Source: Euzebya pacifica (GTDB taxonomy: Bacteria; Actinomycetota; Nitriliruptoria; Euzebyales; Euzebyaceae). Taken from it: DNA of 64,000 bases. The position numbers and the translations under genes were made by a program. The notes under the pieces are model-generated. The model was not told the origin of the DNA and made no database searches. It saw only the letters and a program-made list of their open reading frames with translations. Position 1 is the first letter of the stretch, and every line of letters starts with the position of its first letter. The DNA lies in assembly GCF_003344865.1 (NCBI RefSeq), contig NZ_CP031165.1, positions 62,001 through 126,000 of the forward strand, in the 5' to 3' direction. Below, piece by piece: positions 3,576-46,614 of the stretch.

Positions 3576-3608
3576 CCCCAACGAAATCCACGACAGGAGC
3601 CGCGCCAC

Positions 3609-6563: not shown

Positions 6564-7402
6564 TGGAGCTGCTGCGCGCACTCGGGACCCTCGCCGAGCA
6601 GCCCGACGTCCACACCGCCGACCTCGCGCGGCTCGTGGGGCTCGACCCACCCACGCCCGACGAGTGGCACGCCACGTTCGTCGAGCGGTTCTACCCCTAC
6701 GCGTCGGTCCACCTCGGCCAGCAGGGGTTCCTCGGGGGCCCCGTGCGCGACGGCGTTGCGGGGGTCCTGGACACCATCGGTGCCCGGGTCGCACAGGAGG
6801 CCGACCACCTCGCCGTCCTCCTGGACGCCTTCGCCCACGTCGACGAGCGGGGCTGGGTCCCGGGTCGGGCGGTCCTGCTGTGGGAGCACATCCTGCCGTG
6901 GACGCTGCCCTTCCTCGATCGGGTGGCCCTGGAGGGGGCCGGGCCCTTCCGCGACTGGGCACAGCTGCTGTCGGCCGTGCTGGCCGACACTGCCGAACGC
7001 GTGCCGCGGCCGAGCGGCGCCGAGCTGGTCCTCGTGGAGGAACCCGACGGCCTGCCCGACCCTCGGCTGGGCGGCGAGGACGACCTCGTGCAGGCGCTCC
7101 TCGCCCCCGCTCGGTACGGCGCCATCCTCACGCGCGACGACCTGCTGCTGGCGGCCGGTCGACTCGACCTCGCGCCCCGGGTCGGGGAACGACGCTACGT
7201 GCTGCGGGCGCTGCTCCAGCAGGACCCTGCGGGGACGCTGGGCTGGCTGGGCAACCACGCCCGAGCCGCTGATTACCGCACCCGCACATGGCCCGAGGTC
7301 GTGGGACACCTCGCGGCCTGGTGGTCGTCTCGGGCCACCCGTTCCGCCGACCTGCTCAATGACCTCGCCGACGACGCCCGTACCGCGAAGGCGGTGGCCT
7401 AG
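6563..7402 (+). CDS. TorD/DmsD-type chaperone for the molybdoenzyme
   Basis: A 279-residue, predicted all-helical protein whose ATG overlaps the stop of the catalytic subunit. The pattern of an N-terminal helical bundle, a segment around PYASVHLG and a central region HVDERGWVPGRAVLLWEHILPW resembles TorD/NarJ-like maturation chaperones, which hold the apo-Mo enzyme during cofactor insertion. The C-terminal 90 residues extend beyond the usual size of about 200 and match nothing I recognise. Assignment rests on fold pattern and context. Confidence 0.75.
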   Translation: MELLRALGTLAEQPDVHTADLARLVGLDPPTPDEWHATFVERFYPYASVHLGQQGFLGGPVRDGVAGVLDTIGARVAQEADHLAVLLDAFAHVDERGWVPGRAVLLWEHILPWTLPFLDRVALEGAGPFRDWAQLLSAVLADTAERVPRPSGAELVLVEEPDGLPDPRLGGEDDLVQALLAPARYGAILTRDDLLLAAGRLDLAPRVGERRYVLRALLQQDPAGTLGWLGNHARAADYRTRTWPEVVGHLAAWWSSRATRSADLLNDLADDARTAKAVA

Positions 7403-7435
7403 AGGCCACCGAGCCGAACCACAAAGGAGGACCCG

Positions 7436-7912
7436 ATGGCTGGAGATCCAGACGCTGGCAGCATGACGATCGTGTGCTGGTCGGGAGACCTGGACAAAGT
7501 CTGGCCCCAGTACATCCTCGCCACGACCGGCGCGGCCTACGGCATGGACGTCATGCTCTTCTGCACGTTCTGGGGGCTGTTCCCGCTGAAGAAGCCGGGC
7601 GTCGGCATCACGGGCAACAACTGGATGACCAAGGCGCTCGGCGTCATGAACCGCGAGAACCTCAGCCATCTCAACGTGGGTGGGGCCGGGGCGAAGATGA
7701 TGCGCACCATCGCCGCGGAGCAGGGCGTGGCGCCGCCCGAGGAGCTGATGGAGATCGCGCTCGAGCTGGGGGTTCGCATCGCCCCCTGCCAGATGACGAT
7801 GGACCTGATGGGGTTGGAGCGCGAGGACCTCATCGACGGCCTGCAGGAGCCGTTGGGCGCGGCGGCGGCCGTGGCGGAGATGAAGAAGTCCGAGATCAAC
7901 CTGTTCATCTGA
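7436..7912 (+). CDS. DsrE/DsrF-like sulfur carrier (DsrE2-type)
   Basis: A 158-residue DsrE-fold protein. Two cysteines lie in conserved-looking settings: FCTFWG after the hydrophobic strand, and APCQMTMDLMG, the expected persulfide-carrying site of DsrE2 proteins. Family members receive sulfane sulfur and pass it to or from TusA. A strong ribosome site AAAGGAGG lies 6 bases before the ATG at 7436. TusA follows directly, giving the DsrE2-TusA-rhodanese trio known from sulfur oxidisers. Confidence 0.85.
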   Translation: MAGDPDAGSMTIVCWSGDLDKVWPQYILATTGAAYGMDVMLFCTFWGLFPLKKPGVGITGNNWMTKALGVMNRENLSHLNVGGAGAKMMRTIAAEQGVAPPEELMEIALELGVRIAPCQMTMDLMGLEREDLIDGLQEPLGAAAAVAEMKKSEINLFI

Positions 7913-7953
7913 GCGCCCACGGGTGGAGCACCCCGGGCAGACAAGGAGCTGAC

Positions 7954-8184
7954 ATGGCCGACATCGCCAAGACCCTCGACGCGAGTGGACTCGCGTGCCC
8001 GATGCCCGTGGTCAAGACCCGGATGGCCATCACCGACCTCCAGTCCGGGGACGTGCTGGAGGTCATCTCCACCGACCGGGGGTCGTGCACCGACATCCCC
8101 GCCTGGACGGAGGGGACCGGCAACAAGCTGATCGAGCAGCGGGAGGAGAACGGTTCGTTCGTCTTCCTCATCGAGAAGTCGTGA
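7954..8184 (+). CDS. tusA: TusA-family sulfur carrier protein
   Basis: A 76-residue protein with the family motif CPMPVVK near the N-terminus; its first cysteine carries the persulfide. AAGGAG lies 6 bases before the ATG at 7954. It sits between DsrE2 and the MBL-rhodanese enzyme and overlaps the latter (GTGA). Context points to sulfane-sulfur trafficking for oxidation, not tRNA thiolation, though both use the same fold. Confidence 0.9.
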   Translation: MADIAKTLDASGLACPMPVVKTRMAITDLQSGDVLEVISTDRGSCTDIPAWTEGTGNKLIEQREENGSFVFLIEKS

Positions 8185-9536
8185 CCGGCATCACGACCGA
8201 CGGGCTGGTGGTCATCGACACCACCAGCCTGGGCGACCGCAGCTACCTGCTGACCGACGGCGACGTGGGCGTCGTCATCGATCCGCAGCGAGACATCGAA
8301 CGCGTCCTGCGCGCCGCCGAGGACGCATCGGTGCGCGTGACCCACGTCCTGGAGACCCACGTGCACAACGACTACGTCACCGGGGGGCTCGCCCTGGCCG
8401 GTGCCGTCGGCGCCAGCTACGGCATCCCCGACGGCGAGGCGATGGCCTTCGAGCACGACGTCGTGCGGGACGGCGCCGCGCTGGAGACCGGCCACCTGCG
8501 CCTCGTACCGGTGCACACGCCCGGCCACACGCCCACCCACATGTCCTACCTGGCCATGCGCGACGACGAGGTCATCGGGCTGTTCACCGGTGGGTCGATG
8601 CTGTACGCGGCGGTCGGTCGCACCGACCTGATCAGTGAGGCGCTGACGCACTCCCTCAGCCTGCAGCAACACGCATCGGTCCGGCACCTCGCCGGCCTCG
8701 TCGACGGCGGGATCCCGGTGTTCCCCACCCACGGGTTCGGCAGCCACTGCAGCTCCGGGACTGCCGACATCATCCACAGCGGCACGGTGGCCGACGAACG
8801 AACCCGCAACCCCGCCCTCCTCACCGCCGACCCCGAGGCCTTCGCCGACGAGCTGATCGCTGGCCTCGGTCCCTACCCCACCTACTACGAGCGGATGGAC
8901 CCGGCGAATCGCCAGGGGCCCGGTCGGGTGCCCACCGAGCTGCCCGAACGCCTCACCGCCGGCGACGTGGCCGCCCACATCGACAGGGGCTCGATGGTGG
9001 TCGACCTCCGCGCTCGCGGACCGTTCGCGGCCGGGCACCTGCCCGGGAGCGTCAACGTGGAGCTCCGTGACGACCTGCCGACCTACCTCGGCTGGGTCCA
9101 CGATGCAGCCGATCCCTTGCTGCTGCTGGCCCCCGACGAGCGCGACCTGCGGGAGGCGCAGGTCATGCTCGCCCGCATCGGCCTCGACGACATCGTCGGC
9201 GTCGGCATCGGGCCGGTGACCGACTTCGCCGGTCCCGGTGGCCTTGGCGTGACGCGCCGCGTCCGATGGCCCGAGGTCAACGACGCGCGTCCTGCAGACG
9301 CGGTGGTCCTCGACACGCGTGACCAGCACGAGTGGGACAGCGGCCACCACTCGGCCGCCATCCACATCCCCTTCCACGAGGTGCTTGCCCGGGAGGGCGA
9401 GCTGCCCGCCGGGCCGGTCTGGGTCTACTGCGCCACCGGCAACCGGGCCGCAGTCGCCGCCTCGCTGCTGGCGAGGGTGGGCCGCGAGGTCGTCCTCATC
9501 GACGACTTCTGCCTGCCCGGCGACGTCCCCGGCTGA
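8181..9536 (+). CDS. CstB-like persulfide dioxygenase with two rhodanese domains
   Basis: A cytoplasmic 451-residue fusion. Residues 1-250 are a metallo-beta-lactamase domain with the non-haem-iron site of persulfide dioxygenases (His60, His62 and Asp64 in ETHVHNDYVTGG; later PGHTPTH). Residues about 258-345 are a rhodanese-like domain without an active cysteine. Residues about 355-451 are a rhodanese with Cys417 in the loop YCATGNRA. This order is that of CstB, which oxidises low-molecular persulfides and handles the product with the rhodanese. The GTG start at 8181 overlaps the tusA stop. It ends the sulfur operon, and a sulfite or thiosulfate product would fit the Mo complex upstream. Confidence 0.85.
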   Translation: MTGITTDGLVVIDTTSLGDRSYLLTDGDVGVVIDPQRDIERVLRAAEDASVRVTHVLETHVHNDYVTGGLALAGAVGASYGIPDGEAMAFEHDVVRDGAALETGHLRLVPVHTPGHTPTHMSYLAMRDDEVIGLFTGGSMLYAAVGRTDLISEALTHSLSLQQHASVRHLAGLVDGGIPVFPTHGFGSHCSSGTADIIHSGTVADERTRNPALLTADPEAFADELIAGLGPYPTYYERMDPANRQGPGRVPTELPERLTAGDVAAHIDRGSMVVDLRARGPFAAGHLPGSVNVELRDDLPTYLGWVHDAADPLLLLAPDERDLREAQVMLARIGLDDIVGVGIGPVTDFAGPGGLGVTRRVRWPEVNDARPADAVVLDTRDQHEWDSGHHSAAIHIPFHEVLAREGELPAGPVWVYCATGNRAAVAASLLARVGREVVLIDDFCLPGDVPG

Positions 9537-12141: not shown

Positions 12142-13059
12142 GTGTCGAACTCGCGTTCCCGACGACTGGCCACCATCCTGGCCCTCGTCAGCCTCCTCGG
12201 GCTGCTCCCGCCCGCCGGTGCGCAGGAGCCGGGTACGCCGCAACCGGGCCTCCCGACGGAGCGCCTGCAGGGTGACAGCCGCTTCGGCACCGCGGCAGCG
12301 GTCGCCCGTGCGGCGTTCGAGCGGTCCGACACCGTCTACGTCGCCCCCGGCGGTGCGTTCGCGTTCGCCCTCGCCGGCGGACCCCGCGCACACCGGGCGG
12401 CGGCGCCGATCCTCCTGACCGACGGTCCCACCGTGCCGGACGCCACGATCCAGGAGCTCCAGCGACTGCAACCCCACGAGATCGCCGTGCTCGGCGGCGT
12501 CGATGTCGTCCCGGAGGAGGTTGTGACGACCCTGGCCGGCTTCGGCACCGTTCGTCGCATCGCTGGCGACAACGTGGTCGACACCGTCGCGCGCATCGCC
12601 CTGGACGGCTGGCCCGACGGTGCCGACACGGTCTACCTGGCGACCGCCCAGGACTTCCCCGATGCCCTCGCCGGCGGGGTCGCCGCTGCCATCGACGACG
12701 CACCGATCCTGCTCGTCCAGCGCGACTACCTCCCGCCCGAGACAGCAGCAGCGCTCCGGCAGCTCGGCCCCAGCCACGTCAGGCTCCTCGGCGGCAACGC
12801 CGCCATCACCGATGGCGTCGCCCTCCAGCTGGGGGAGGTCACCGACGCGGTGCCCGGTCGCCTCGGCGGCTCGACGCGCATCCACACCGCCGTCGAGGTC
12901 AACACCGCCGTCCGCCCGTCGGGGCTGGACGTCGCCAACGTCTGGATCGCAACCGCCGAGAACTTCCCCCGACGCCATGGCCGCCACGCCAGCAGTCGTC
13001 GCGTCCGACGGCGCGCTGCTGCTCACCCGCCACGACTGCCTGCCCCACGTGGTCCGTGA
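12142..13059 (+). CDS. N-terminal part of a CWB2-subtilase gene, cut off by a frameshift
   Basis: The GTG at 12142 (GGGGAG 7 bases upstream) opens a signal peptide of about 28 residues ending near PPAGAQ, then CWB2 repeats that anchor proteins to the cell envelope (TERLQGDSRFGTA, FPDALAGG, IAVLGGVDVV, VRLLGGNAAI). The third repeat should read ENFPDAMAATPAVV, but a run of five Cs at 12966-12970 has one base too many. From there the frame encodes unrelated arginine-rich sequence to a stop at 13059. Deleting one C joins it perfectly to the protease frame, so the two parts are one gene of about 1,335 residues. Confidence 0.8.
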   Translation: MSNSRSRRLATILALVSLLGLLPPAGAQEPGTPQPGLPTERLQGDSRFGTAAAVARAAFERSDTVYVAPGGAFAFALAGGPRAHRAAAPILLTDGPTVPDATIQELQRLQPHEIAVLGGVDVVPEEVVTTLAGFGTVRRIAGDNVVDTVARIALDGWPDGADTVYLATAQDFPDALAGGVAAAIDDAPILLVQRDYLPPETAAALRQLGPSHVRLLGGNAAITDGVALQLGEVTDAVPGRLGGSTRIHTAVEVNTAVRPSGLDVANVWIATAENFPRRHGRHASSRRVRRRAAAHPPRLPAPRGP

Positions 13060-16000
13060 CGAGATCGCGCGGCTGGCCCCCGAACGGATCATCGTCCTCG
13101 GAGGCCCTGCCGCCGTCTCGGAGGACGCCGCAGCGCTGGAGGTGTGCGAGACCCTCCCGCCGCCGCCCACCTTCGAGGTGCGCCCCGCCGACCCCGTCGG
13201 CATGGAGCCCGAAGTCGGCGATCTCGGGCCCCGGCCGGTCGCGGAGATCCTGGACGACGAAGGGACAGCCACCCGCCTTGTCGAGGACGAGCTCGTGGTG
13301 TCCACCCGTGACGAGGCGGCCTTCGACACGTGGCTGCACGAGGTCGACGGGCAGGTGCTGCAGTCCATCCCCGGCTCCGACATCATCCCGCCGACCTGGG
13401 TCGTCCGACTGCCGACCCCCGGCAGCTCGTTCTCCCGCGTGGAGGTCGAACAGCTCGGATCGGACCTGCAGCTGCTCAACGGCATCGCGACGGGACACCA
13501 CATCGTCACCTCCGACACCGCCCTGTCGACGGTCGCGACCGCAACGGCTGCCGTCGCCGACGGCCTGACGGTTGGACTCAACGTCGTCGCAGAGCGCGAC
13601 GAGCTCCTCGACGGCGAGGTCGAGGAGTCGCCCAACATCGACGGGGTGGTGGAGTTCGCCAACCCGTTCACCTGGCCGCAGTTCGCGCGGGACGGCCTGC
13701 CGGGGACGGGGACGGCCGAGGCCTGGCGCCTGCTGGCCGCCAATGACCGGGCGGACGCCGAGGTCACAATCGGGATCCTCGACTCCGGCTTCGCGGAGGA
13801 CAACGACGACTACCCCGAGGGCACCCTCGGCCGGGACGGCATCCGCAACACGACCCCGTGTGGCGGTCGGCCGTGTCCGTGGCACGGCACCGATGTCTCG
13901 GTTGCGGCCGCGGGTGTCCTCGACAACCAGTTCGGGTCGGCAGGCGCAGCTGGTCCGATCGGCCGAATCCGTCAGTACGGCCTTCTGGGCACCACGACGG
14001 GATCGATGATCGCCGCGCTGGCGACGATGGCCGGGGAAGGGGTGCCTCCTGTGATCAACGCGAGCCTGTCCTTCACGGTGCCTGCTGCCCTGACGCCGAT
14101 GATGCGCCCCCTGGAGCACGTGACCCGGGGGCTGCAGATCCTGGGTGACGCCGTCTTCGTCGCGTCGGCCGGCAACCAGGGGCTGGACCTCAACCGCACC
14201 GACTGCCTCCCCTTCGGGGTGTGCTGGGAGCGAACGGGCACCTACCCCTGCGAGCTGGACGGCGTCTACTGCGTGGGTGGTCTGACCAGCGGTACCCGTG
14301 ACAGGCACCCGAACTCGAACTTCGGCTTCGAGGCGTGCGAGAACCCGGTCTGTGCGGTGAAGATGTTCGCACCCTTCACCGTGCTCGTCGGCGCGAACCC
14401 CGACAACACGGGCAACCGGTTGCGACCGGTGAACGGCACGAGCTACTCCGCGCCGTACGTGGCAGGTGTCTTCGCCATGATGCGGGCCGCCGATCCGGAC
14501 CTGCACGCACTCCAGCTCATCCACCTGATGAACGCCACGGCCCACTCCTCGACCCATCCACAGGTCGGCCGGGTGGTCAACGCCTACGGCGCGGTGCTCG
14601 AGGCGCTGGGGCCCGACGCACGCACGGTAATCGGCGCCAACCGCACGCCGTCCCCCTTCCCCGTCGATCCGGTCCCGGCCACGGGATTCAGCAGCGTCCT
14701 CAGCACCGATCAGGGGACCCTCCGCGGCGACGGCACGACCCCGTCGACACCCCCGACGGTGGGGTGGTTCGGCACGCTCCCCGGAACCACGTACTGGTCG
14801 GATGCGCCTTGGGCCGGGACCCCCCTGATCGCCGGCGACGTGCTGGTGGTCCCGGCGGTCGACACCCGGGACGAGCGACGAACGGCCAACGAGATCTCCC
14901 TGTTCGGCATCGATCTCGGGACGGGCGACATCCGCTGGTCCATCAGCGACATCGAGGGGACGTGCCCTCCGGTGGTCGACCGCGACGGGCGGGTCTGGGC
15001 CATCCGCGGATACGAGCAGACCAACGTCCTGGAGTGGAGCTTCGTGCTGCTGCGCATCGACGCGGCGACCGGGCGGGCCAGCCGCACGTTCTCCACACCT
15101 CGACACGCGACGGGCGGGGGATTCGCCGACGCAGACCCCCTGCGCGACTGCGACGGCCACCCACTTCGCCTCTCCCCCGATGGCACGCGGCTGCTGGTCT
15201 GGCAGGGCGAAGCCGTGGACTACGTGCGCTACAGCTCGCTCAGGTTGCTCGACATCACCCTGCCCGACGTGGTCGAAACCGCGAACATCCGCATGGACCC
15301 CACCGTGCCGGGTGGGGCGGCGTCGGACTTCAACGGTGACCGTGCCTGGGTCGAGGACCTGCGTGTTGCCGCGGACCGCCACACGGCATATGTCCTGCAG
15401 CGCGGCGCAGGAGACGACTCCGACGACATCACCGACGACGAGTGGTGGCTGCACGCCATCGACATGGCCGGTCTGCCCCGAACGGCCGACCTGATCGACC
15501 CGGGGATCATCGACCGCTCGGTCCGCCTCCCGGTCGGAGCGGTCGACATCGGGGCCTGGGCAGTCGTCGGCGATGACATCATCGTCTCCGGCGAGGAAAC
15601 GCTGTCGGGCCGCCATCGGTTCCCCACCGACGGTGGCCGAACGAGCGGGCGCACGTTCCGCATCCACGACAACGGCACCGCCCTCGTCGAGCAGGCGCGT
15701 CAGCTCAGCGACAGCGGCGCCCCGGCCCGTCCCGGGGAGTTCCCGGATCGTCCGAGGACCATCGGCGTGGCGCCCACCGGCCAGCTGTACGGGCACACGA
15801 GCATCGCGGGGCTGCTGGGCATCGAGCCGGCGACCCTCACCCAGTCGTGGCGCACGGCCGCGGGGAGCTTCGAGGTCCCCGACTACGGCAGCCTCCTCGT
15901 CGACGTCTCCGGCAACGCCGTGGTCGCCGGCCAGTTCGCCGAGACGGTTGACTCGGTGACGCCGACGGGCACGACCCGGTGGTCGTTCCGCCTGCGCGGC

Positions 16001-16147
16001 GACGGCTCGGTCCACGTCGGCGCCGATGGCACTGTGATCGACTACTCCACCGTCGACCGAGTTCGGCTCGTCGCCATCACCGCCGACGGCCGGACGGTCC
16101 TGATCGGTGTCACACCACTCGGGCTGGCCGTGTTCGCCCTGGAGTAG
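12977..16147 (+). CDS. C-terminal part: last CWB2 repeat, S8 subtilase and beta-propeller domain
   Basis: The continuation of the upstream part in the +1-shifted frame. It completes the CWB2 repeat (IIVLGGPAAVS), then a subtilisin-like protease with Asp (codon 13781, ILDSGFAED), His (13883, WHGTDVS) and Ser (14441, NGTSYSAPYVAG). From about 14640 to the TAG at 16145 it forms a PQQ-like beta-propeller (DLGTGDIRWS, TPTGTTRWSFRL). The product would be a wall-attached exported protease. The ATG at 12977 is only the first start after the shift; there is no ribosome site, and this part alone would lack a signal peptide. Confidence 0.75.
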   Translation: MAATPAVVASDGALLLTRHDCLPHVVRDEIARLAPERIIVLGGPAAVSEDAAALEVCETLPPPPTFEVRPADPVGMEPEVGDLGPRPVAEILDDEGTATRLVEDELVVSTRDEAAFDTWLHEVDGQVLQSIPGSDIIPPTWVVRLPTPGSSFSRVEVEQLGSDLQLLNGIATGHHIVTSDTALSTVATATAAVADGLTVGLNVVAERDELLDGEVEESPNIDGVVEFANPFTWPQFARDGLPGTGTAEAWRLLAANDRADAEVTIGILDSGFAEDNDDYPEGTLGRDGIRNTTPCGGRPCPWHGTDVSVAAAGVLDNQFGSAGAAGPIGRIRQYGLLGTTTGSMIAALATMAGEGVPPVINASLSFTVPAALTPMMRPLEHVTRGLQILGDAVFVASAGNQGLDLNRTDCLPFGVCWERTGTYPCELDGVYCVGGLTSGTRDRHPNSNFGFEACENPVCAVKMFAPFTVLVGANPDNTGNRLRPVNGTSYSAPYVAGVFAMMRAADPDLHALQLIHLMNATAHSSTHPQVGRVVNAYGAVLEALGPDARTVIGANRTPSPFPVDPVPATGFSSVLSTDQGTLRGDGTTPSTPPTVGWFGTLPGTTYWSDAPWAGTPLIAGDVLVVPAVDTRDERRTANEISLFGIDLGTGDIRWSISDIEGTCPPVVDRDGRVWAIRGYEQTNVLEWSFVLLRIDAATGRASRTFSTPRHATGGGFADADPLRDCDGHPLRLSPDGTRLLVWQGEAVDYVRYSSLRLLDITLPDVVETANIRMDPTVPGGAASDFNGDRAWVEDLRVAADRHTAYVLQRGAGDDSDDITDDEWWLHAIDMAGLPRTADLIDPGIIDRSVRLPVGAVDIGAWAVVGDDIIVSGEETLSGRHRFPTDGGRTSGRTFRIHDNGTALVEQARQLSDSGAPARPGEFPDRPRTIGVAPTGQLYGHTSIAGLLGIEPATLTQSWRTAAGSFEVPDYGSLLVDVSGNAVVAGQFAETVDSVTPTGTTRWSFRLRGDGSVHVGADGTVIDYSTVDRVRLVAITADGRTVLIGVTPLGLAVFALE

Positions 16148-36339: not shown

Positions 36340-37353
<1,014 letters not shown>

Positions 37354-37436
37354 CCCGTACACATCGGCGGTCGGGTCCGACGGGTGAGGACAATTGGTGC
37401 TGGACGGCCACACGGGCCTCGGATAAACCGGAGCAG

Positions 37437-39299
37437 TTGCACGATCCTTCGCCTCCTGAACCCTCGCCGCCACCCGTCGACCTCGGCATACCCGACCTCG
37501 GGCCGGCGAGGCTGATCGGCGAGGGCGCCCGGGGGACGGTGTACCGGGCGCCCATCCCGACCGGCCACGACGTTGCCGTGCGGGTGGTGTCGCCCTTCGG
37601 CGGGGACCCCGCCGAGCTCGACGGACTGTGCAGGACCGCGGGGCTGCTGACCACACGTGCCCACCCGCATGTCTCAGCAGTCTGGGCGGCCGGTGTGACC
37701 GACACGGGCGCCGGCTACCTGGTCGAGGAGATCCGAGCCGGCGGCAGCCTGCGGACCATGCTGGAGAAGGGTCCGCTCGACGTGGCAGACGTGCTGTCCC
37801 TCGGTGTGCGGCTGGCGGCGGGCATGGCGGCCGTCCACGCCTGCGGGTCCCTCATCGGCTGGGTCGCGTCGGACAGTGTCCGGACGGATGCGTGGGGTCA
37901 GCGAACGTGGTGCGGTGTCGGGGTCGACCTGCTGCTGCGGGACGGGGACAGCCGTCGGGTGCCCAGCATGTACGCAGCCCCGGAGTGGTTCGAGGGTGGG
38001 GGCCCCACGGTGGCGACGGAGGTCTACGGACTCGGCGCCGTGCTGGCGCATGCGTTGCGCGGGCGGGCCCTCGCCGACATCGGGCATGTGGAGGAGACGA
38101 TCCTGCCGCTGATGACGCGGGTGAGGACCGGGGACCTGCCCGACCTCGCCAAGGAGGGATTTCCCGAACCCGTCGCCGCCCTGATCCACACGCTGACCGC
38201 GCTCGACCCGGCGGACCGGCCGGATCCCACCGGTGCTGGCGCCATGATCCGTGCGGTCCAGGCGCGGCTGGGACAGCCGGTGACCGAGGTCGGACCGTGG
38301 TCCCCTCCCTCGAGGGCCGTGCCGGTCGGAACGAAGGGCCCCGAACGCGAACGTCTCGCGGTCCCACCGGCGCCCTCCCCTCGGCCGGCCCCGCCTTCGC
38401 CCTCCCCGCGGCCGGTCCCGCCGAGCCCGCGTCCGTCCGCACGGGGGTGGCTGGTGACCGAGCGAGGGGATCACTGGCCGGTCGCCGGCGAGGTCAGGAT
38501 CGGAACCGGCACGACCGTGCGTCCGGTGGGCACGGGCGTGGTGCTGGAGAACCGCGACGAGGGAACCCTCATCGCGTCGAGCGGTCAGCCTCCTCGCCGG
38601 ATCGCCTGCCCGTCGGCCACGTTCCTGGAGGAGGGGGACGTCGTTCACGTCGGTGGTGAACGCCTGCGGTGGCGTGCGTTCGTGGAAGCGCCGTTCCCTG
38701 TGCCGGCGCCAACGCATGCGCTGACGGCCGCGGCGGCGTGCGCCGGCCTGTACGGGGAGCCCTGGGTCGGTGCCCTCCTGGATGCGGCGAAACGCTGCCG
38801 GACGTCGGTGGTGGCGGTCGATGTCGGGCTGCGTACCGCGGCGGACCTGGCCCCGGTCCCGTGGGTGGCGCGAGGGGATCGGGTCGGGCTGGACCTGCCG
38901 GTCGGACGGGCGCGTGTCGTGACCGCCGGGCCCGACGGGGTGGCCGTGCCGCTCGAGGGTCGGCGGGTCGTGGCGTGGGATCGTGTCCGGGAGCTGAGGT
39001 ACAGCGTCTGGGGGGCCAACCAGCAGGAGTTCGCCATCGAGCACGCGGACGGACGGATCAGCTGGTCGCCGGTTCTGGGGTGGCCGTCGGCTGGGTCCGG
39101 TTTCCTGAGGGCCGTCGCCGGGATCTGGCGCGCAGCGGCCCCCGACGTCTGGCGGCAGGCGCGGGCGGCACACACCGCGGACCTTCGCCAGCGGCACGGA
39201 CTCCCTGACACGGGACCTGCTGACGACGCCGAACACGACGAGCTGCGTCGCCGAATCCTCCAACCGCGGGTGGGCGGGGACTCCCACCTGGTGACCTGA
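37437..39299 (+). CDS. Pseudokinase with FHA-like and conserved C-terminal domains
   Basis: A 620-residue soluble protein. Residues 22-270 resemble a Ser/Thr kinase: the glycine loop GEGARGTV (28-35) and the C-lobe APEW (181-184) and EVYGLG survive. The beta3 lysine is Arg49 (VAVR), HRD is replaced (HACGSLIGW) and DFG is lost (GVGVDLLL). It should not phosphorylate. A proline-rich linker (about 300-335) leads to an FHA-like beta segment (about 336-410), then a 200-residue domain shared with the next gene. TTG at 37437 is chosen because it follows GGAG and precedes the first domain. It is first of three co-directional genes. Confidence 0.7.
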   Translation: MHDPSPPEPSPPPVDLGIPDLGPARLIGEGARGTVYRAPIPTGHDVAVRVVSPFGGDPAELDGLCRTAGLLTTRAHPHVSAVWAAGVTDTGAGYLVEEIRAGGSLRTMLEKGPLDVADVLSLGVRLAAGMAAVHACGSLIGWVASDSVRTDAWGQRTWCGVGVDLLLRDGDSRRVPSMYAAPEWFEGGGPTVATEVYGLGAVLAHALRGRALADIGHVEETILPLMTRVRTGDLPDLAKEGFPEPVAALIHTLTALDPADRPDPTGAGAMIRAVQARLGQPVTEVGPWSPPSRAVPVGTKGPERERLAVPPAPSPRPAPPSPSPRPVPPSPRPSARGWLVTERGDHWPVAGEVRIGTGTTVRPVGTGVVLENRDEGTLIASSGQPPRRIACPSATFLEEGDVVHVGGERLRWRAFVEAPFPVPAPTHALTAAAACAGLYGEPWVGALLDAAKRCRTSVVAVDVGLRTAADLAPVPWVARGDRVGLDLPVGRARVVTAGPDGVAVPLEGRRVVAWDRVRELRYSVWGANQQEFAIEHADGRISWSPVLGWPSAGSGFLRAVAGIWRAAAPDVWRQARAAHTADLRQRHGLPDTGPADDAEHDELRRRILQPRVGGDSHLVT

Positions 39300-39324
39300 C
39301 GTCCACTCTTCGCGAGGAGCCCGC

Positions 39325-40365
39325 ATGACCAGCCACCATGACCAACGCGAGGCCCAGCAGCTGCGCGAACGTGCGGCTCCTGCGTCCGTGCCGACGCCAG
39401 TCGGCGTCCCGGTGGCCCCACCCCCGCCAAGCGTCGGAGGCGGCCCGGTGGGTTGGCTGGTCAGTGACCGAGGAGAGATCCTGCCGCTCCACGGCCTTAC
39501 TTGGCTCGGCAGCGCCCCATCCGAGGCGGGAGCGCAGGAGCGCCGTCACTGTGTCGAAGGGCTCCACCCGACACACGCGTGCCTGCTTCCAGTCGGCACC
39601 GGCCTCGTGGTCAAGGAGCACCGGCTTCCCGCCGCCATCGTGTCGAACGGGCAGACACCCCAGATGCTGGACGGACAGTCCCTGACCGGCCTGGACGACG
39701 GGGACATCCTTCACCTCGGGCCGGTGCGGCTGCGCTGGCTGGCCAATGCGACCATGCCGGACGAACCGATTCCTCCGCCGGAGGACGAGCTGACCGCTGT
39801 CGCTGCTGCGTCCCGTCTGTACCGCCAGCCGTTCGTCAGCGCGCTGTTGGCCGCCGCCGCGCGCACACGCGGCATCGTGGCCGCGGTGGACGTCGGCCTT
39901 CGGGATGTGACCGATGACGCGCCGGCGGAGTGGGAACTGCGAGGGGCCTCCATCGTCCAAGACCTTCCCGTCGAGCGTGCCAGCGTGGTCGTGGTCGGCC
40001 CCCGCGGTGTGTCCGTACCGCTGGAGAACAGGCGCCCGGTGCCCTGGAGACGTGTCCGCCAGCTCCGGTACGGGACAGGGGACGTCAATCAGCAGTTCGA
40101 GATCCTCAGCGACTCCGGACGGATCGAGTGGGCAGCGCTCAGGGGAGGGCCAACCATGGGAACCGCGCTTCTCGGTGCAGCGGCGATGGCGTGGCGAGCA
40201 GCTGCCCCCGATGTCTGGCAGCAGGCACGCGCGGCCCACAGCGCGGACCTGCGGCAGCGCCACGGCTTCCTCGACACTGGGCCTGTTGACGACGCCAGCC
40301 ACGAGGCGCTGCTCTTGCGGACGCGTCCCCCGCTGGTGCGTGGTGACTTCCACCTGGTGACCTGA
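39325..40365 (+). CDS. FHA-like protein with the same conserved C-terminal domain
   Basis: A 346-residue paralogue of the second half of the upstream pseudokinase. An FHA-like part (about 43-140: GWLVSDRGEILPL, DGDILHLGPVRLRWL) is followed by the shared domain (about 150-346). That domain has near-identical blocks: VAAVDVGLRD, WRRVRQLRY, NQQFEI, WRAAAPDVWQQARAAH, ADLRQRHG, DTGPVDD and a HLVT C-terminus. It has no kinase part. The ATG follows GAGGAG. The shared domain matches nothing I know. Confidence 0.7.
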   Translation: MTSHHDQREAQQLRERAAPASVPTPVGVPVAPPPPSVGGGPVGWLVSDRGEILPLHGLTWLGSAPSEAGAQERRHCVEGLHPTHACLLPVGTGLVVKEHRLPAAIVSNGQTPQMLDGQSLTGLDDGDILHLGPVRLRWLANATMPDEPIPPPEDELTAVAAASRLYRQPFVSALLAAAARTRGIVAAVDVGLRDVTDDAPAEWELRGASIVQDLPVERASVVVVGPRGVSVPLENRRPVPWRRVRQLRYGTGDVNQQFEILSDSGRIEWAALRGGPTMGTALLGAAAMAWRAAAPDVWQQARAAHSADLRQRHGFLDTGPVDDASHEALLLRTRPPLVRGDFHLVT

Positions 40366-40390
40366 CGTCGACCCCGAGCGAGGAGACCAC

Positions 40391-40948
40391 ATGACCGACC
40401 GCTACGACGGACGCGAGGCCCCGCCGCCCGTGCCGATCGACGTGCCACCGATCGTGGGCGCCAACCCGTGGGGCGCTCCCCCTGGCTGGCGGATCGAGCA
40501 CGGCCTGCCGCTCGTCGAACGTCGCGACTACCTCCCCTGGGCGGTTGTCCGCGGCGACGTCCCGCCGGAGGTGGTGTACCCGGGCACGGCCGAGACCGCG
40601 ACCGAGGTCCTGCTCGTGGACGGTCCGTTCATGGGCCGACCGGTCCGCTTCGGCGCACGCTTCGACGACGACGGCGTGCTGGTCGGGCTGGAATGCCACC
40701 GCTTGGCGCACTGGGCGTGGCCGGACGTCCCGGCGGTCGGACTGTCGCCACAGGTCCGCACGCACCTGGCCGCCGCGCTGGGTTTGCCCACCACCCATCG
40801 AACCGACCGGCAGCAACCAGCCGACGAGTACGACGTGGGATGGCTCCACGCGCGCCACGAGGTCCGGTACAGCCCGTCCAGCCGCGATGCCATGGACGAC
40901 TCCTGGGACGAGGCGCTGGTGATCACCGTCCGAGCTGGCGGGTCCTGA
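40391..40948 (+). CDS. Third gene of the pseudokinase module, unknown function
   Basis: A 185-residue soluble protein, proline-rich at the N-terminus (PPPVPIDVPPIVGANPWG), otherwise unfamiliar. Tryptophans are frequent (GWRIEHG, LPWAVV, HWAWPDVP, VGWLHARH). The 46 bases spanning the previous stop and this start are almost the same as at the previous gene junction, and GAGGAG precedes the ATG. It is therefore probably in the same operon and may act with the two FHA-like proteins. It converges with the exopolysaccharide operon. Confidence 0.65.
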   Translation: MTDRYDGREAPPPVPIDVPPIVGANPWGAPPGWRIEHGLPLVERRDYLPWAVVRGDVPPEVVYPGTAETATEVLLVDGPFMGRPVRFGARFDDDGVLVGLECHRLAHWAWPDVPAVGLSPQVRTHLAAALGLPTTHRTDRQQPADEYDVGWLHARHEVRYSPSSRDAMDDSWDEALVITVRAGGS

Positions 40949-40963
40949 CGTCGTGCCCGGGGG

Positions 40964-41989
40964 TCACGACACGCGGTCCATGGTGGGAAGGTCCCGGCCC
41001 TCGGCAACGCCCTCGAGCGCGATCCGCGCCGCCATCCTCCCGCGCGTCCACGCGACTGTGCGCTGGAGTCCTTCCTCCAGGGACACGGGCGCCACGTCGG
41101 GCACGAGGGTACGAAGGCGGTCGACGTCGGCCCGGCTGTGGCGGATGTCGCTCACCCGTTCGGGGCCGTGGTGCACGACCAACGGGTGGCCCACGACACG
41201 GCAGACGACGTCGATCAGCTGGTCCAACGACGTCGGCTCACCGGAGGCCACGTTCACCGCGGCGGCACTCGTCAGCCCACGTTGCAACGCGGTGGAGATC
41301 ACGTCGGCCACCGTGTCGACGAAGACGAAGTCCCTTGTCTGCCCACCATCACCGTTGACCACCAACGGCTGTCCGTCGAGCGCGGCCTCGACGAACGCGG
41401 GGATCACGGCCGCGTACGCGTGGCCGGCCGGTTGGTGGGGCCCGTAGACGTTGAAGAACCGCAGCGGCAGCACCGGCAGGCCGTAGCTGCGCCCGTACGA
41501 CAGCGCGTAGCCCTCCGCGGCCAGCTTGCTGGCTGCGTACGGGCTCAGCGGATCCACCGGCAGCCCCTCGTGCTTCCGTGCTGCCGGGTGCTCGCCGTAC
41601 ACCGCAGAGGACGAGGCCAGCACCACCGGGACGTTGCCGACGGCACGCGCCGCATCCAGCACCCGCAGGGTCCCCGTGGCGTTGACCTCGTGGCAGAGGA
41701 CGGGATCGGCGACCGACGCGGCGACCGACGCCATGGCCGCGAGGTGGACGATCCCGTCGCAGCCCTCCACGGCGGACCGCAGCGCGGTCCAGTCCAGGAT
41801 CGAGGCGTCGATGTCGGTCACCGGAAGGCCGTGGAGGGTGCCGTGGTCACCCGCGGAGCGATCGTCGATGACCCGGACCTCGTCGACCTCGTCATCGTCC
41901 AGCAACCGACGCACGAGGTTGGCACCGATGAAACCCGCACCACCGGTGACGAGGATGCGGCGGGGTCGTTGCAGCGTGGAGCGGGTCAT
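40964..41989 (-). CDS. NAD-dependent nucleotide-sugar epimerase/dehydratase
   Basis: An extended SDR of 341 residues: GGAGFIGANLVRRLL at the N-terminus, the catalytic SSSAVYGE and YAASK (Tyr/Lys) motifs and NVYGPHQ. It resembles UDP-glucose 4-epimerase and related sugar epimerases that prepare precursors for polysaccharides. The ATG overlaps the stop of the small membrane gene. It is the last gene of the ten-gene exopolysaccharide operon. The exact sugar is unknown. Confidence 0.88.
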   Translation of the reverse strand: MTRSTLQRPRRILVTGGAGFIGANLVRRLLDDDEVDEVRVIDDRSAGDHGTLHGLPVTDIDASILDWTALRSAVEGCDGIVHLAAMASVAASVADPVLCHEVNATGTLRVLDAARAVGNVPVVLASSSAVYGEHPAARKHEGLPVDPLSPYAASKLAAEGYALSYGRSYGLPVLPLRFFNVYGPHQPAGHAYAAVIPAFVEAALDGQPLVVNGDGGQTRDFVFVDTVADVISTALQRGLTSAAAVNVASGEPTSLDQLIDVVCRVVGHPLVVHHGPERVSDIRHSRADVDRLRTLVPDVAPVSLEEGLQRTVAWTRGRMAARIALEGVAEGRDLPTMDRVS

Positions 41990-42396: not shown

Positions 42397-44258
42397 CGGG
42401 CACCCACCCCTCCCACCTCGGTGACGCCCCGGTCCTCGGGGGCTCGACCCCACACCACACCAGCGTCGTTGCGGGCCAGCTCGACGAAGGCGGGATCCGC
42501 GGCGAGCGCGGCGTCGATCGTGGCGATGCCACCCGAGGGCAGCGAGCCCGACGCCTCGGTGGCCGCGACCATGCTCCGGGTCAGCAGCAGGTAGGTGGCG
42601 CTGTACGCCTCGTTGTCCAGCCACTCGCCCAGCACCCCGGCGGGGTCGGCGAGCACCCGACGACGACCGTCGACGGGTTCACGGTCGATGGGGACGTAGG
42701 TGAAGACCTCGTACCGCAACGACTGCGTGGGGTAGTTGCGTGATCCCTCGACCAGCAGCGACCCGGGCGGGGCGGTCGCGTAGAGGTCCTGGACCAGCGC
42801 CACCTCGTCCTGACCGAACGCGTACTGCCGCTCGTTGCCCAGGTGGGCCAGCAGGAACAGCGGCAGCAGCACGGCGCTCGCAACCGCCACGACGGCAGCG
42901 CCCCCACGACGCGACCGGTCGGCCACGAGGAGGGTGCCGACGAGGAACGCCAGCGCCGGGAGCCCGAACAAGACCACGCGGAACAGCACCTCGCCGCCGT
43001 AGCTGCTCAAGCCGACCAGCAGCACCGGCAGCCCGGCCAGCAGGGCCATCAGGCCGTGGGTTCGTCCCCGACGCCATTCCCGCAGCAGGCCGATCAGCGC
43101 CAGCAGCACCACCAGGACGGTCAGCACCCGGGCCGACGCCGCCACCAGCGCCTGGCCGCTGCTGACCGCCGCGAGGTCGACCACGGTGCCGTCGAGGTTG
43201 CTGCCGACCGAGCCAACCGTCTCGAGCTCGTCGGCGTTGTCCATCAGCAACGGCGCGGCGAAGACCACGGCCCATGCCGCGCCGACGCCGACGATCACCG
43301 TGGCCAGCCACGGCGTCCCGGCGTAGGCCCCCACGACCAACGCCACACAGGTGAGGGCCAGCATCACCGGGGTCAGCTGATGGCTGCAGGCGATGGCGAG
43401 GGCAAGGACGTAGACCTCCCGCGGGACGACCCCCAAGCGCTTGCGGACCGAGGTCGGGCCCAAGCGGCGCACCCCGCGTCCCACCCGTGACATCGCCCTG
43501 CTGCTGGCCGCGCCGATGCGCGTCAGGGCCGGGGTGGCCCGTGTCGCCAGCCGCAGCGACACCGGGCGTCGTGCCGCCGTGAGGCAGACCAGGACCACGA
43601 CGGCGGTCAGGTACATGACGAAGGCCATGGCCTGCGGGCTGAAGTAGTCCTGCCCGACCCACGACCCGAGTACGTACACCCAGCACGCCACCGGGCCCAC
43701 TCGCCGATCGTCGGTGCACACGGCGAACAGGACCGACAGCAGCCAGACGACCAGGAGGTTGACCACCAGCGGCCACCACCGGCCCAGCTGGGCCGCGTCG
43801 ATCCCGGTGGTCTCCGCGATCATGGCGTTGAGGGCGAAGAAGCCGGGCCACCCGTGGTAGGCGCCCAGCGTCTCGATGGTGGGGTCGACGACGCCGTTGC
43901 GCGTGATGAAGTCGATGACGCCCACGTGCTTCCACGCCCACGGATACCGCATGGTCCCGTACACCAGCGTCGGCGTGGCGTGCAGCACGACGAGCATCGC
44001 GACGACATGGGCCCGGAGGACGCCCGGCACGACCACGGGCATCGCCAGCGCACGGACGAAGCCGGCGACGAGGAAGCCCAGCCCGACCAGGCAGGTGACC
44101 GGCAGGACGCTGACGAACCCGAGGTCCGTCATCTCCTGCCAACGGATGCCGCCCACGATGCCCACGCCCCACAGGGCCACCCCGCCGATGAGCAGGGCCA
44201 GCGCGTCGAGCCGTTCGCGACGGCCGACCGCCGGTTCAGCGGAGGACGAGATCAACAT
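42393..44258 (-). CDS. Large polytopic membrane protein, glycosyltransferase-C or polymerase-like
   Basis: A 621-residue protein with about 14 hydrophobic segments and a soluble C-terminal part of about 110 residues. The loop YHGWPGFFALNAMIAETTG and the motif SWVGQDYFSPQAM occur in uncharacterised actinobacterial membrane proteins of polysaccharide clusters. The layout (many helices, long periplasmic loops) suits a GT-C glycosyltransferase or a Wzy-like polymerase, the one function otherwise missing here. The ATG at 44258 lies inside the end of the flippase gene (23-base overlap). No ribosome site is evident, so coupling is likely. Confidence 0.65.
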   Translation of the reverse strand: MLISSSAEPAVGRRERLDALALLIGGVALWGVGIVGGIRWQEMTDLGFVSVLPVTCLVGLGFLVAGFVRALAMPVVVPGVLRAHVVAMLVVLHATPTLVYGTMRYPWAWKHVGVIDFITRNGVVDPTIETLGAYHGWPGFFALNAMIAETTGIDAAQLGRWWPLVVNLLVVWLLSVLFAVCTDDRRVGPVACWVYVLGSWVGQDYFSPQAMAFVMYLTAVVVLVCLTAARRPVSLRLATRATPALTRIGAASSRAMSRVGRGVRRLGPTSVRKRLGVVPREVYVLALAIACSHQLTPVMLALTCVALVVGAYAGTPWLATVIVGVGAAWAVVFAAPLLMDNADELETVGSVGSNLDGTVVDLAAVSSGQALVAASARVLTVLVVLLALIGLLREWRRGRTHGLMALLAGLPVLLVGLSSYGGEVLFRVVLFGLPALAFLVGTLLVADRSRRGGAAVVAVASAVLLPLFLLAHLGNERQYAFGQDEVALVQDLYATAPPGSLLVEGSRNYPTQSLRYEVFTYVPIDREPVDGRRRVLADPAGVLGEWLDNEAYSATYLLLTRSMVAATEASGSLPSGGIATIDAALAADPAFVELARNDAGVVWGRAPEDRGVTEVGGVGAR

Positions 44259-46614
44259 TGAGCGCGAACCAGCGGGTGCCCGGCTGGTAGCGGGGTGAGG
44301 TGGGGATCGTGGCCGTGACCAGGCCGAGCCAGCCGAGGACCACCGCATCGTCGGGGGGCAGGGAGCCGGGGGTGGCGCCGGCCTCCTCGATGCCCGCGGT
44401 GGCGAGGATCGCCAGCTCCCACGGCTCAAGCTGTCTGCCGGACCGCAGGCCGACGACATGCGGACCCAGCTGCTCGCCGAGGGCGTCGATCCTGCTGCTG
44501 AGCACCAGGGTGGCCAGGTCCACCAGTGGGTTGCCGTACGAGGAGGCCTCCCAGTCGACGAGGCCGACCGGCGCGTCGGGACCGGTGGGACGGCCGTCCC
44601 ACCACGACGAACCGGGGCGAACCTCGTCCAGGCGGGTCCCATCGATGACGACGTTTCCCAGCCAGGCATCCCCGTGCACGACCGCGTGGTCGGCGTCCGC
44701 GAGCTCGAGCCGGGTGGCGATCCGGTCGAGGGTCCCCTCGAGGCGGTCGAGCGCGGCCGGACGGGCCGAGGCGACCAACGCCTCGACCAACGGTTCGGCG
44801 GTGTCGTGCACCCAGCGGCGACGTTCGGGCGCGGTGGTCGGGTGGGCCGTTCGCTGGTGCAGGTGGCGCAGCGCCCGGGCGGCGATCTCGGTCGCCTCGC
44901 GCCGGGACAGCCCGTCGCCGACGAGGTGATCTGCCCGGACTCCGGCCAGCCGGGTCTCCACGCTGATGGTTGTGGCAGGAGTGGTCGGCACCGTGGTCAG
45001 GTCGATGATCGCGGGGTGGGCCACGAGGCCGTCCAGCGGGAGGGACGCGGAACGGGTCAGGACGTCGGCCGCGGCCTCGATCGCGGTCGTCCCGTGCGAT
45101 GCGGTGGCGGTCCGCACGACGAGCTGCGCCCCGGACGTCCGGTCGGTCACCGAACGGATCGTGACCTCACCGCCGCCGGACATGGCCTCCACCTCCAGCG
45201 CTCGCCCCCGCAGGGCAGGGAACGGCACCAGCGGGTCGGTGTCTCGCCGGCGACGGCGGCGGGCCGCCCGCTGTCCGTCCACGTGCAGCCACAGGCTGGT
45301 GGCGATCGCGCGGATGGGGGACTCGCGCAGTGTGTCGTTGAGGGCCAGCGCCGCCACGAGGTTCAGGCCGAGCCACAAGCAGCCCACCCCGGTGATCCCC
45401 GCCTGCTGGACCGCCGGGCCCGCGCCGCCGACCACACCCACCGCCAGGCCAGCCGAGACCAGCAGGAGGCGTCGGTAGCGGCCGGTGGCCCGCAGCACCG
45501 CCAGCCCGTTGGTCACCACCAGGCCCGGAAGGGTGGCCACGACCAGAAGCCGGAGGAGGGTCGTGCCGGCGGTGCGGTACTCGGGTCCGAACAACGACAG
45601 CAGCAGCGGTGCGGCGACGACGCCGACGACCGCTGCCGGAACCAGGACCACGGCGCCGCGACGCAGGGAGCGCAGCGCCAACGAGGTGGCGTTCCTCGGC
45701 GCTGCGGCGGCCTCGGTGAGGAGGGACATGCCGAGGCCCCGCCCCAGCAGGTACGGCACGTAGGCCGTGGACCAGGTCAGCGTGAAGTAGGCGGTGCGTG
45801 CTGGTCCCACGTGCCCGAGGAGCAGCACCGGCAGCAGGCCGTGGGACGCCGAGCTGAACAGCGAGGCGACGTGGTCGACGGTCAGGAACCGGCCGACGCC
45901 GCCCAGCGAGAGGTCGTCCGGTCCGGCGGTCGTCGGGCCGGACGTCGCCGGGAGGGACCTCGCGACGACCAGCCAGACGGTGCCGACGACGATCGGCAGG
46001 GCCGCGACCCAGGCCCAGAAGACCGCGAGCGCTGCGGTGACGGGCAGCGCGAGGAGGACGACGAGCTTGACGATCGCGTAGCCGAGGTTGGAGGCCAGCA
46101 GCACCGAGCTGCGGCGAAGTCCAGCCAGGACTCCGTGCTGGACGACGAAGAGGGTCCAGCAGGCCGAGACGGCGGGGAACCACCACCACGCACCGGTTCC
46201 GTCGAGCGCGGGCACGAGGTCCGGGGCCCACCGCGACAACCCCAGCAGGAACACCACACCGGCCAACCCGCCGGCAGCGGCGGCGGTCGTGCCGCCGGTG
46301 CGCAGGAACCAGCGCGCGCGGTCCCCGGCGACGGGCAGGTAGCGGTTGAAGCCGTTGACCAGGCCCAGCTGGGCGAAGTTGCCGAGCAGTCCGAGCACCG
46401 CGACGAGCGCAGCCCCGATCCCGACCGTCGCCGCGCCGTATCGCCGGGCGGCCACCGTCCAGAACGCGACGCCGAGGACCGAGGTGGCGAGCGAGGACAG
46501 CCCGATGACGTAGCCGTGGCGTGCCAACGGATCGTCGCCGAGCGCCCGCACTGTGTGCATCGTGCGGGCTCGAAGGCCACCCGCCGGTGCCCTGGCTTCC
46601 TCCACCTGCATCAT
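44236..46614 (-). CDS. Polysaccharide flippase fused to an APH/choline-kinase-like domain
   Basis: A 792-residue fusion. Residues about 15-440 are a Wzx/MATE-type flippase with some 12-14 helices (FWTVAARRYGAATVGIG, LLGRGLGMSLLTEA). Residues about 460-792 are an aminoglycoside-phosphotransferase-like kinase with the catalytic HGDAWLGNVV (His-Gly-Asp...Asn) and the metal motif LVDWEAS. Both parts look intact. The first should translocate lipid-linked repeat units; the second could phosphorylate a sugar or lipid head group. I know the two folds only as separate proteins. It starts at an ATG overlapping the GH16 stop. Confidence 0.8.
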   Translation of the reverse strand: MMQVEEARAPAGGLRARTMHTVRALGDDPLARHGYVIGLSSLATSVLGVAFWTVAARRYGAATVGIGAALVAVLGLLGNFAQLGLVNGFNRYLPVAGDRARWFLRTGGTTAAAAGGLAGVVFLLGLSRWAPDLVPALDGTGAWWWFPAVSACWTLFVVQHGVLAGLRRSSVLLASNLGYAIVKLVVLLALPVTAALAVFWAWVAALPIVVGTVWLVVARSLPATSGPTTAGPDDLSLGGVGRFLTVDHVASLFSSASHGLLPVLLLGHVGPARTAYFTLTWSTAYVPYLLGRGLGMSLLTEAAAAPRNATSLALRSLRRGAVVLVPAAVVGVVAAPLLLSLFGPEYRTAGTTLLRLLVVATLPGLVVTNGLAVLRATGRYRRLLLVSAGLAVGVVGGAGPAVQQAGITGVGCLWLGLNLVAALALNDTLRESPIRAIATSLWLHVDGQRAARRRRRRDTDPLVPFPALRGRALEVEAMSGGGEVTIRSVTDRTSGAQLVVRTATASHGTTAIEAAADVLTRSASLPLDGLVAHPAIIDLTTVPTTPATTISVETRLAGVRADHLVGDGLSRREATEIAARALRHLHQRTAHPTTAPERRRWVHDTAEPLVEALVASARPAALDRLEGTLDRIATRLELADADHAVVHGDAWLGNVVIDGTRLDEVRPGSSWWDGRPTGPDAPVGLVDWEASSYGNPLVDLATLVLSSRIDALGEQLGPHVVGLRSGRQLEPWELAILATAGIEEAGATPGSLPPDDAVVLGWLGLVTATIPTSPRYQPGTRWFALNVDLVLR

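Follow-up and report, generated by a model that had tools for sequence, protein, structure and literature searches.

Three adjacent genes of Euzebya pacifica appear to encode a lineage-specific, phosphorylation-independent scaffold, in which a predicted pseudokinase joined to an FHA-like fold would form a complex with a second, related protein; judging from the sequences and from analogy with known systems, we give this reading a probability of about 0.5. The genes, here called P1, P2, and P3, follow one another in that order on the + strand at positions 37437-40948 of the window, by which we mean the whole 64,000-nucleotide stretch of DNA analyzed (source genome of 6.37 Mb, two contigs).

P1 (37437..39299, +; 620 aa) comprises a pseudokinase domain (residues 15-290, 37479..38306), a proline-rich linker (38307..38444), a truncated FHA-like segment (38445..38681), and the first copy of a C-terminal orphan domain (38703..39296), all read from the + strand. 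P2 (39325..40365, +; 346 aa) has a degenerate FHA fold (residues 41-143, 39445..39753) followed by the second copy of the orphan domain (39766..40362), and P3 (40391..40948, +) is an orphan of 185 aa. Translation of P1 starts at a TTG codon with GGAG upstream, both conserved in the sister species, where the order of the three genes is also the same. The spacers between genes measure ~25 bp, and a GCGAGGAG ribosome-binding-like site lies ahead of P2 and of P3. On the left, a GGDEF gene (36340-37362, - strand) is divergent from P1, while on the right an NDP-sugar epimerase gene (40964-41989, - strand) converges with P3. The set looks like one putative operon. Inspection of the sequences revealed zero transmembrane-like stretches in the three proteins, which makes a soluble complex plausible.

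P1 and P2 share 48% identity over 304 aa (E=2e-60), and the duplicated unit is the FHA-like and C-terminal parts together (~300 aa). A preliminary description of this DNA, made from its letters, had proposed a C-terminal domain of 200 residues that recurs in P2; the recurrence stands, but the shared part is larger than these last 200 residues. The near-invariant blocks that it pointed out at the protein ends are present as well, partly because of a nucleotide repeat of roughly 235 bp, the copies of which are about 80% identical and spaced 1066 bp apart. The first copy (39126..39361, +) runs from the 3′ end of P1 across the spacer into the start of P2, and the second (40192..40427, +) from the 3′ end of P2 across the spacer into the start of P3. 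This repeat suggests a tandem duplication, the unit of which reached the first codons of P3, possibly with some conversion. P3 as a diverged copy of P2 was rejected (hhalign probability of 0.5%), there being no detectable kinship beyond those first codons.

The novelty claimed for the shared domain, and the orphan status claimed for the third protein, both held. The C-terminal domain matched no family in Pfam, NCBIfam, PHROG, PADLOC, or a PDB sequence search, and a PDB sequence search with the profile of the FHA and C-terminal parts gave nothing significant. P3 likewise had no family in Pfam, NCBIfam, PADLOC, or PHROGs and nothing significant in the PDB sequence search, such that these four libraries returned generic kinase matches in P1 only. 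Modeled alone, the C-terminal domain (P2 copy) was predicted to have two helices, ~seven strands, and, toward the C-terminus, long helices (pLDDT 57), and a structure search with this model assigned no fold (best Z 4.6), which does not by itself argue for a new one. A PH-like identity, considered from the order of strands and helices, was backed by zero matches. Structure prediction of the shared unit, which had been put forward as a check, thus recovered a fold for the FHA part of P2 (see below) and not for the C-terminal domain.

The module was present in two of the 66 genomes of the class Nitriliruptoria, both among the four of the genus, and was absent elsewhere among 396 sampled Actinomycetota genomes. 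Searches with the profile of the FHA and C-terminal parts recovered five full-length proteins, two of them in this genome and the other three in the sister species, and P3 was found in the same two genomes only. Neither these proteins nor P3 occur in the remaining two species of the genus, whose guaB loci have different neighbors. No relatives of the combined profile or of the C-terminal profile emerged from two scans of genome contigs and one of viral contigs, nor did a tblastn search of plasmids with P2 expose any. Weak profile matches (E 1e-6 to 1e-1) occurred in other Actinomycetota, and seven of these loci were read (the newest, L138-L140, were left out): one holds a true FHA domain, and the rest resemble either unrelated proteins or shadow frames of GC-rich DNA. 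The true FHA protein (L039, in genome G073) is encoded beside an active kinase gene and, with E 1.8e-6 over the FHA part only, is the best profile match beyond the two genomes; it is a canonical FHA with GR and SRSH motifs and without the C-terminal orphan domain. In the sister species, a third copy is a solo gene of pseudokinase-FHA-C-terminal architecture (L007:6891-8783, -), situated near a histidine ammonia-lyase-like gene and without P2 or P3 as neighbors.

Such a distribution, confined in our searches to two of the four genomes of the genus, could signify that the genes are a cassette of recent acquisition, or one in decay, whose function has not settled, and their composition would fit, since none of the 45 genes in the window has a lower GC3 than P1 and P2 (0.85 and 0.80 vs a mean of 0.92). 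Recent exchange is also suggested by the region 39200-41150, which extends over P2 and P3 into the end of the epimerase gene and shows an identity of about 91-98% with the sister species, most flanks being lower. Synonymous divergence (dS) in this 39.2-41.15 kb tract is 0.05-0.09 vs about 0.3 or more in flanking genes, and it looks like a recombination tract reflecting a recent exchange between the species. However, reading frames are intact in both species, and the dN/dS between them is 0.15 for the kinase part of P1 and 0.14 for its C-terminal part, as compared with 0.98 for the linker. By these values, purifying selection acts on the kinase and C-terminal parts, so that the dead domain is maintained, while the proline linker evolves freely. 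The ratios for P2 (0.52) and P3 (0.35) are less clearly low, and few changes were counted in them. With a paralog of the same architecture retained at a second site as well, we consider the cassette explanation unlikely, even though it survives best among the alternatives to the scaffold.

Pfam did not report its FHA model for P1-P3. The predicted model of P2 was weak overall (pLDDT 50), the better part being residues 43-141, with values of about 50-74 in the FHA part. When this model was compared in VIA, Z reached 11.1 (92 residues, 2.4 Å) and the top rows were all FHA or FHA-like; a Foldseek search with it also matched FHA domains or FHA-like folds. At the sequence level, hhalign aligned a profile of the five module sequences, fully in register, to 28 FHA domains from the genus (E 8e-6), and the solo paralog was matched directly by the FHA profile of the genus (i-E 1.5e-4, four-sequence set). 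The presence of an FHA beta-sandwich fold in the module is therefore supported by both the predicted model and the sequences, in agreement with the preliminary description, which had placed an FHA-like segment after the proline linker of P1.

FHA domains bind phosphothreonine (pThr) through the Arg of a GR motif, the Ser of an SxxH motif, and an Asn. In the profile-profile alignment with the 28 FHA domains, each of these is replaced in P2 and the paralog: VGR reads LGS or IGA, VSrrHA reads LHPTHA or LAPDHA, and StNG gives way to unrelated residues. The sole pocket residue kept, in P2 and the paralog, is the His of the SxxH motif. The FHA segment of P1 goes further, as ~22 residues at the pThr site are missing relative to P2 and the solo paralog, in both species. 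With Arg, Ser, and Asn gone in all versions, the pocket appears lost and reading of phosphorylation by the module is unlikely. Of the earlier proposal of a scaffold that reads phosphorylation, the scaffold is accordingly the better half and the reading the part that fails.

These losses bear on a second alternative, a phospho-dependent adaptor in which an active kinase of the cell would phosphorylate P1, for example in its linker, and the FHA fold of P2 would dock there. Candidate kinases are available, with ~25 further kinase-like matches in the genome, most of them with intact catalytic motifs, and P2 does have the FHA fold. A precedent comes from Mycobacterium, where the pseudokinase MviN recruits FhaA once PknB has phosphorylated it, the contact requiring phosphorylation of the pseudokinase tail (PMC12599244). 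MviN and FhaA (the ActPs3 group) are, like the module, a case of an actinobacterial pseudokinase working with an FHA partner. However, MviN acts in peptidoglycan synthesis as a membrane protein, its contact with FhaA depends on phosphorylation, and its motif pattern (VALT / Lsidhpsr / Y--) differs from that of P1. Because the pThr-binding residues are missing in each copy and the corresponding segment is deleted from P1, we regard such an adaptor as improbable.

P1 residues 15-290 match PF00069 (E 5.4e-10; 39.6 bits vs a cut-off of 31.7), and the kinase part aligns with StkP. The glycine loop GEGARGTV (residues 28-35) and the APE motif (181-183) are retained, as had been described, together with the reported loss of the beta3 Lys, HRD, and DFG. 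The beta3 Lys is replaced by R49 (VAVR instead of VAVK), the alphaC Glu by Thr (in the alignment with kinases of the genus), and DFG by GVG (160-162). The HRDxKxxN position reads IGWVASDS (140-147), with HRD replaced by IGW (140-142), the HRD Asp by W142, and the catalytic-loop Asn by S147. All three known copies, P1, its ortholog, and the paralog of the sister genome, have lost the catalytic residues: at the positions of the beta3 Lys, alphaC Glu, HRD Asp, and DFG Asp, P1 and the ortholog have R, T, W, and G, and the paralog, with LGW for HRD and SIG for DFG, has R, T, W, and S. The motif set of the copies can be written VAVR / (I,L)GWVA(S,P)D(S,A) / GVG or SIG. Other kinases of the genus, a few outliers excepted, keep the catalytic residues in the same alignment. 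By sequence, then, P1 is a pseudokinase, having lost each canonical catalytic residue tested. In a maximum-likelihood reconstruction, the three pseudokinases formed one clade (100/100) on a long stem, nested among the active kinases of the genus within a group of good support (98/94), and catalysis was most simply lost in a single event, before the copies diverged. Among the other kinase-like proteins of this genome, at least two more (L071, G000:C1:1377076-1377672; L073, 320750-321313) are without the beta3 Lys or parts of HRD/DFG, and the genome may thus hold further pseudokinases.

What remains of the active site could point to a nucleotide-binding pseudoenzyme, in which Arg49 would pair with Asp164 and the complex would be driven by ATP binding or a new transfer activity. 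The glycine loop is partly retained, R49, W142, and D164 are invariant in all copies, and a salt bridge involving the beta3 Arg has been proposed for DYD kinases (PMC12599244). However, none of the HRD Asp, the Asn, and the DFG Asp remains, the first being replaced by a Trp, and pseudokinases that miss all three motifs almost never bind ATP (PMC12599244), which renders a nucleotide-driven complex doubtful.

By comparison with described groups, P1 falls outside the ActPs2, GLW, and DYD pseudokinases and may or may not belong to ActPs1 or ActPs3. An active Hanks-type Ser/Thr kinase was rejected, for although PF00069 matches, the beta3 Lys, alphaC Glu, HRD Asp, and DFG Asp are absent. In ActPs1, all three motifs are substituted, a PQQ-type C-terminal domain is frequent, and the G-helix is often missing (PMC12599244); judged by this description, P1 has the motif loss in common with the group, and Pfam found no PQQ domain in it. 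The beta3 Lys to Arg change is common to P1 and ActPs2, a typically membrane-linked group in which the HRD Asp is Asn and which has insertions of about 32 and 250 aa (PMC12599244), whereas in P1 the HRD Asp is Trp and the DFG-APE span is 24 residues. The hallmark of ActPs3 is a deletion in the activation loop, alongside complete motif loss; the P1 loop, at 24 residues vs a median of 28, falls within the range of active kinases, and its motif loss is full. GLW pseudokinases have GLW for HRD, Leu or Trp for the beta3 Lys, and a C-terminal TM region (PMC12599244), whereas P1 and its relatives have IGW or LGW, a beta3 Arg, and, for P1, no TM-like stretch. DYD pseudokinases share the beta3 Arg and loss of the alphaC Glu with P1 but retain HRD and/or DFG, both lost in P1, and are typically membrane-linked (PMC12599244).

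The neighborhood indicates no particular process. Genes of type VII secretion, cell division, or active kinases, which the preliminary description had suggested looking for beside the module, were not recognized among the neighbors examined, nor were defense genes. The last result counts against the weakest alternative, participation in a defense or conflict system, which we deem very unlikely: the distribution is patchy and the kinase-like matches include the MADS mad6 and PD-T4-6 models (PADLOC E about 1e-18 to 1e-17), but the best of them lie within the generic kinase domain, and the score for the NCBIfam mad6 model is 42 bits vs a cut-off of 460.

Elsewhere in the window, a protein with cell-wall-binding (CWB2) repeats and a subtilase domain (12142-16147) is split over two overlapping frames, its third CWB2 repeat switching frames over a run of CCCCC near 12970, by either a strain frameshift, phase variation, or a sequencing error. 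A gene at 44236-46560, in a polysaccharide-type cluster, encodes a long N-terminal part (flippase-like by eye) with a C-terminal APH phosphotransferase domain (residues 471-702). Genes for an NrfD/4Fe-4S protein, a molybdopterin oxidoreductase, a chaperone-like protein, a TusA-like protein (by eye), and a rhodanese/metallo-beta-lactamase protein lie in a row at 2022-9536, in what looks like a sulfur-compound oxidoreductase cluster.

The best analogue of the module is the pairing of YukC/EssB with YukB/EssC in type VIIb secretion, which likewise brings together a pseudokinase and FHA folds without pThr-binding residues. YukC copurifies in E. coli with the FHA domains of YukB, from which the phosphate-binding residues are absent, and the interaction is phosphorylation-independent (PMC9600267). 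YukC sits in the membrane and belongs to a secretion locus, whereas in the module a single, apparently soluble chain combines pseudokinase, FHA fold, and orphan C-terminal domain; neither a TM-like stretch nor, among the neighbors examined, a secretion gene was recognized that would mark a type VIIb system. Since the module repeats this pattern of an FHA fold without phosphate-binding residues, we propose a phosphorylation-independent P1:P2 complex. In the scaffold so envisaged, a Hanks-type kinase of the genus would have lost catalysis once, in a chain whose FHA fold gave up its phosphothreonine pocket and whose C-terminal domain would probably serve for interaction. Tandem duplication would have yielded P2, a kinase-less copy of the FHA and C-terminal parts, and the two proteins would most likely associate via the shared C-terminal domain and/or by contact of the pseudokinase with the FHA fold of P2. 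Because P3 accompanies P1 and P2, it is a candidate partner. Counting against the scaffold are the solo paralog in the sister species, by which P2 and P3 are not always required, the quality of the C-terminal model (pLDDT 57, best Z 4.6), the dN/dS of P2 and P3 (0.52/0.35), and the neighboring genes, which hint at no process.

Bacterial pseudokinases are experimentally mostly unexplored (PMC12599244). The pairing of a pseudokinase with an FHA domain was already known; new here is their union in one apparently soluble protein that also has an orphan domain. We tentatively suggest, at slightly less than even odds, that a writer (kinase) and a reader (FHA) have turned structural within one soluble chain and been joined to a new domain that forms a complex with its own kinase-less copy, which would amount to a pseudokinase family and an assembly domain not described before, both limited so far to one genus. 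As the pseudokinase and the phospho-blind FHA share one chain, with a partner copy ready-made, and active relatives of the dead kinase persist in the same genomes for comparison, this small soluble system could test contact between pseudokinase and FHA without phosphorylation, an idea known from type VII secretion.
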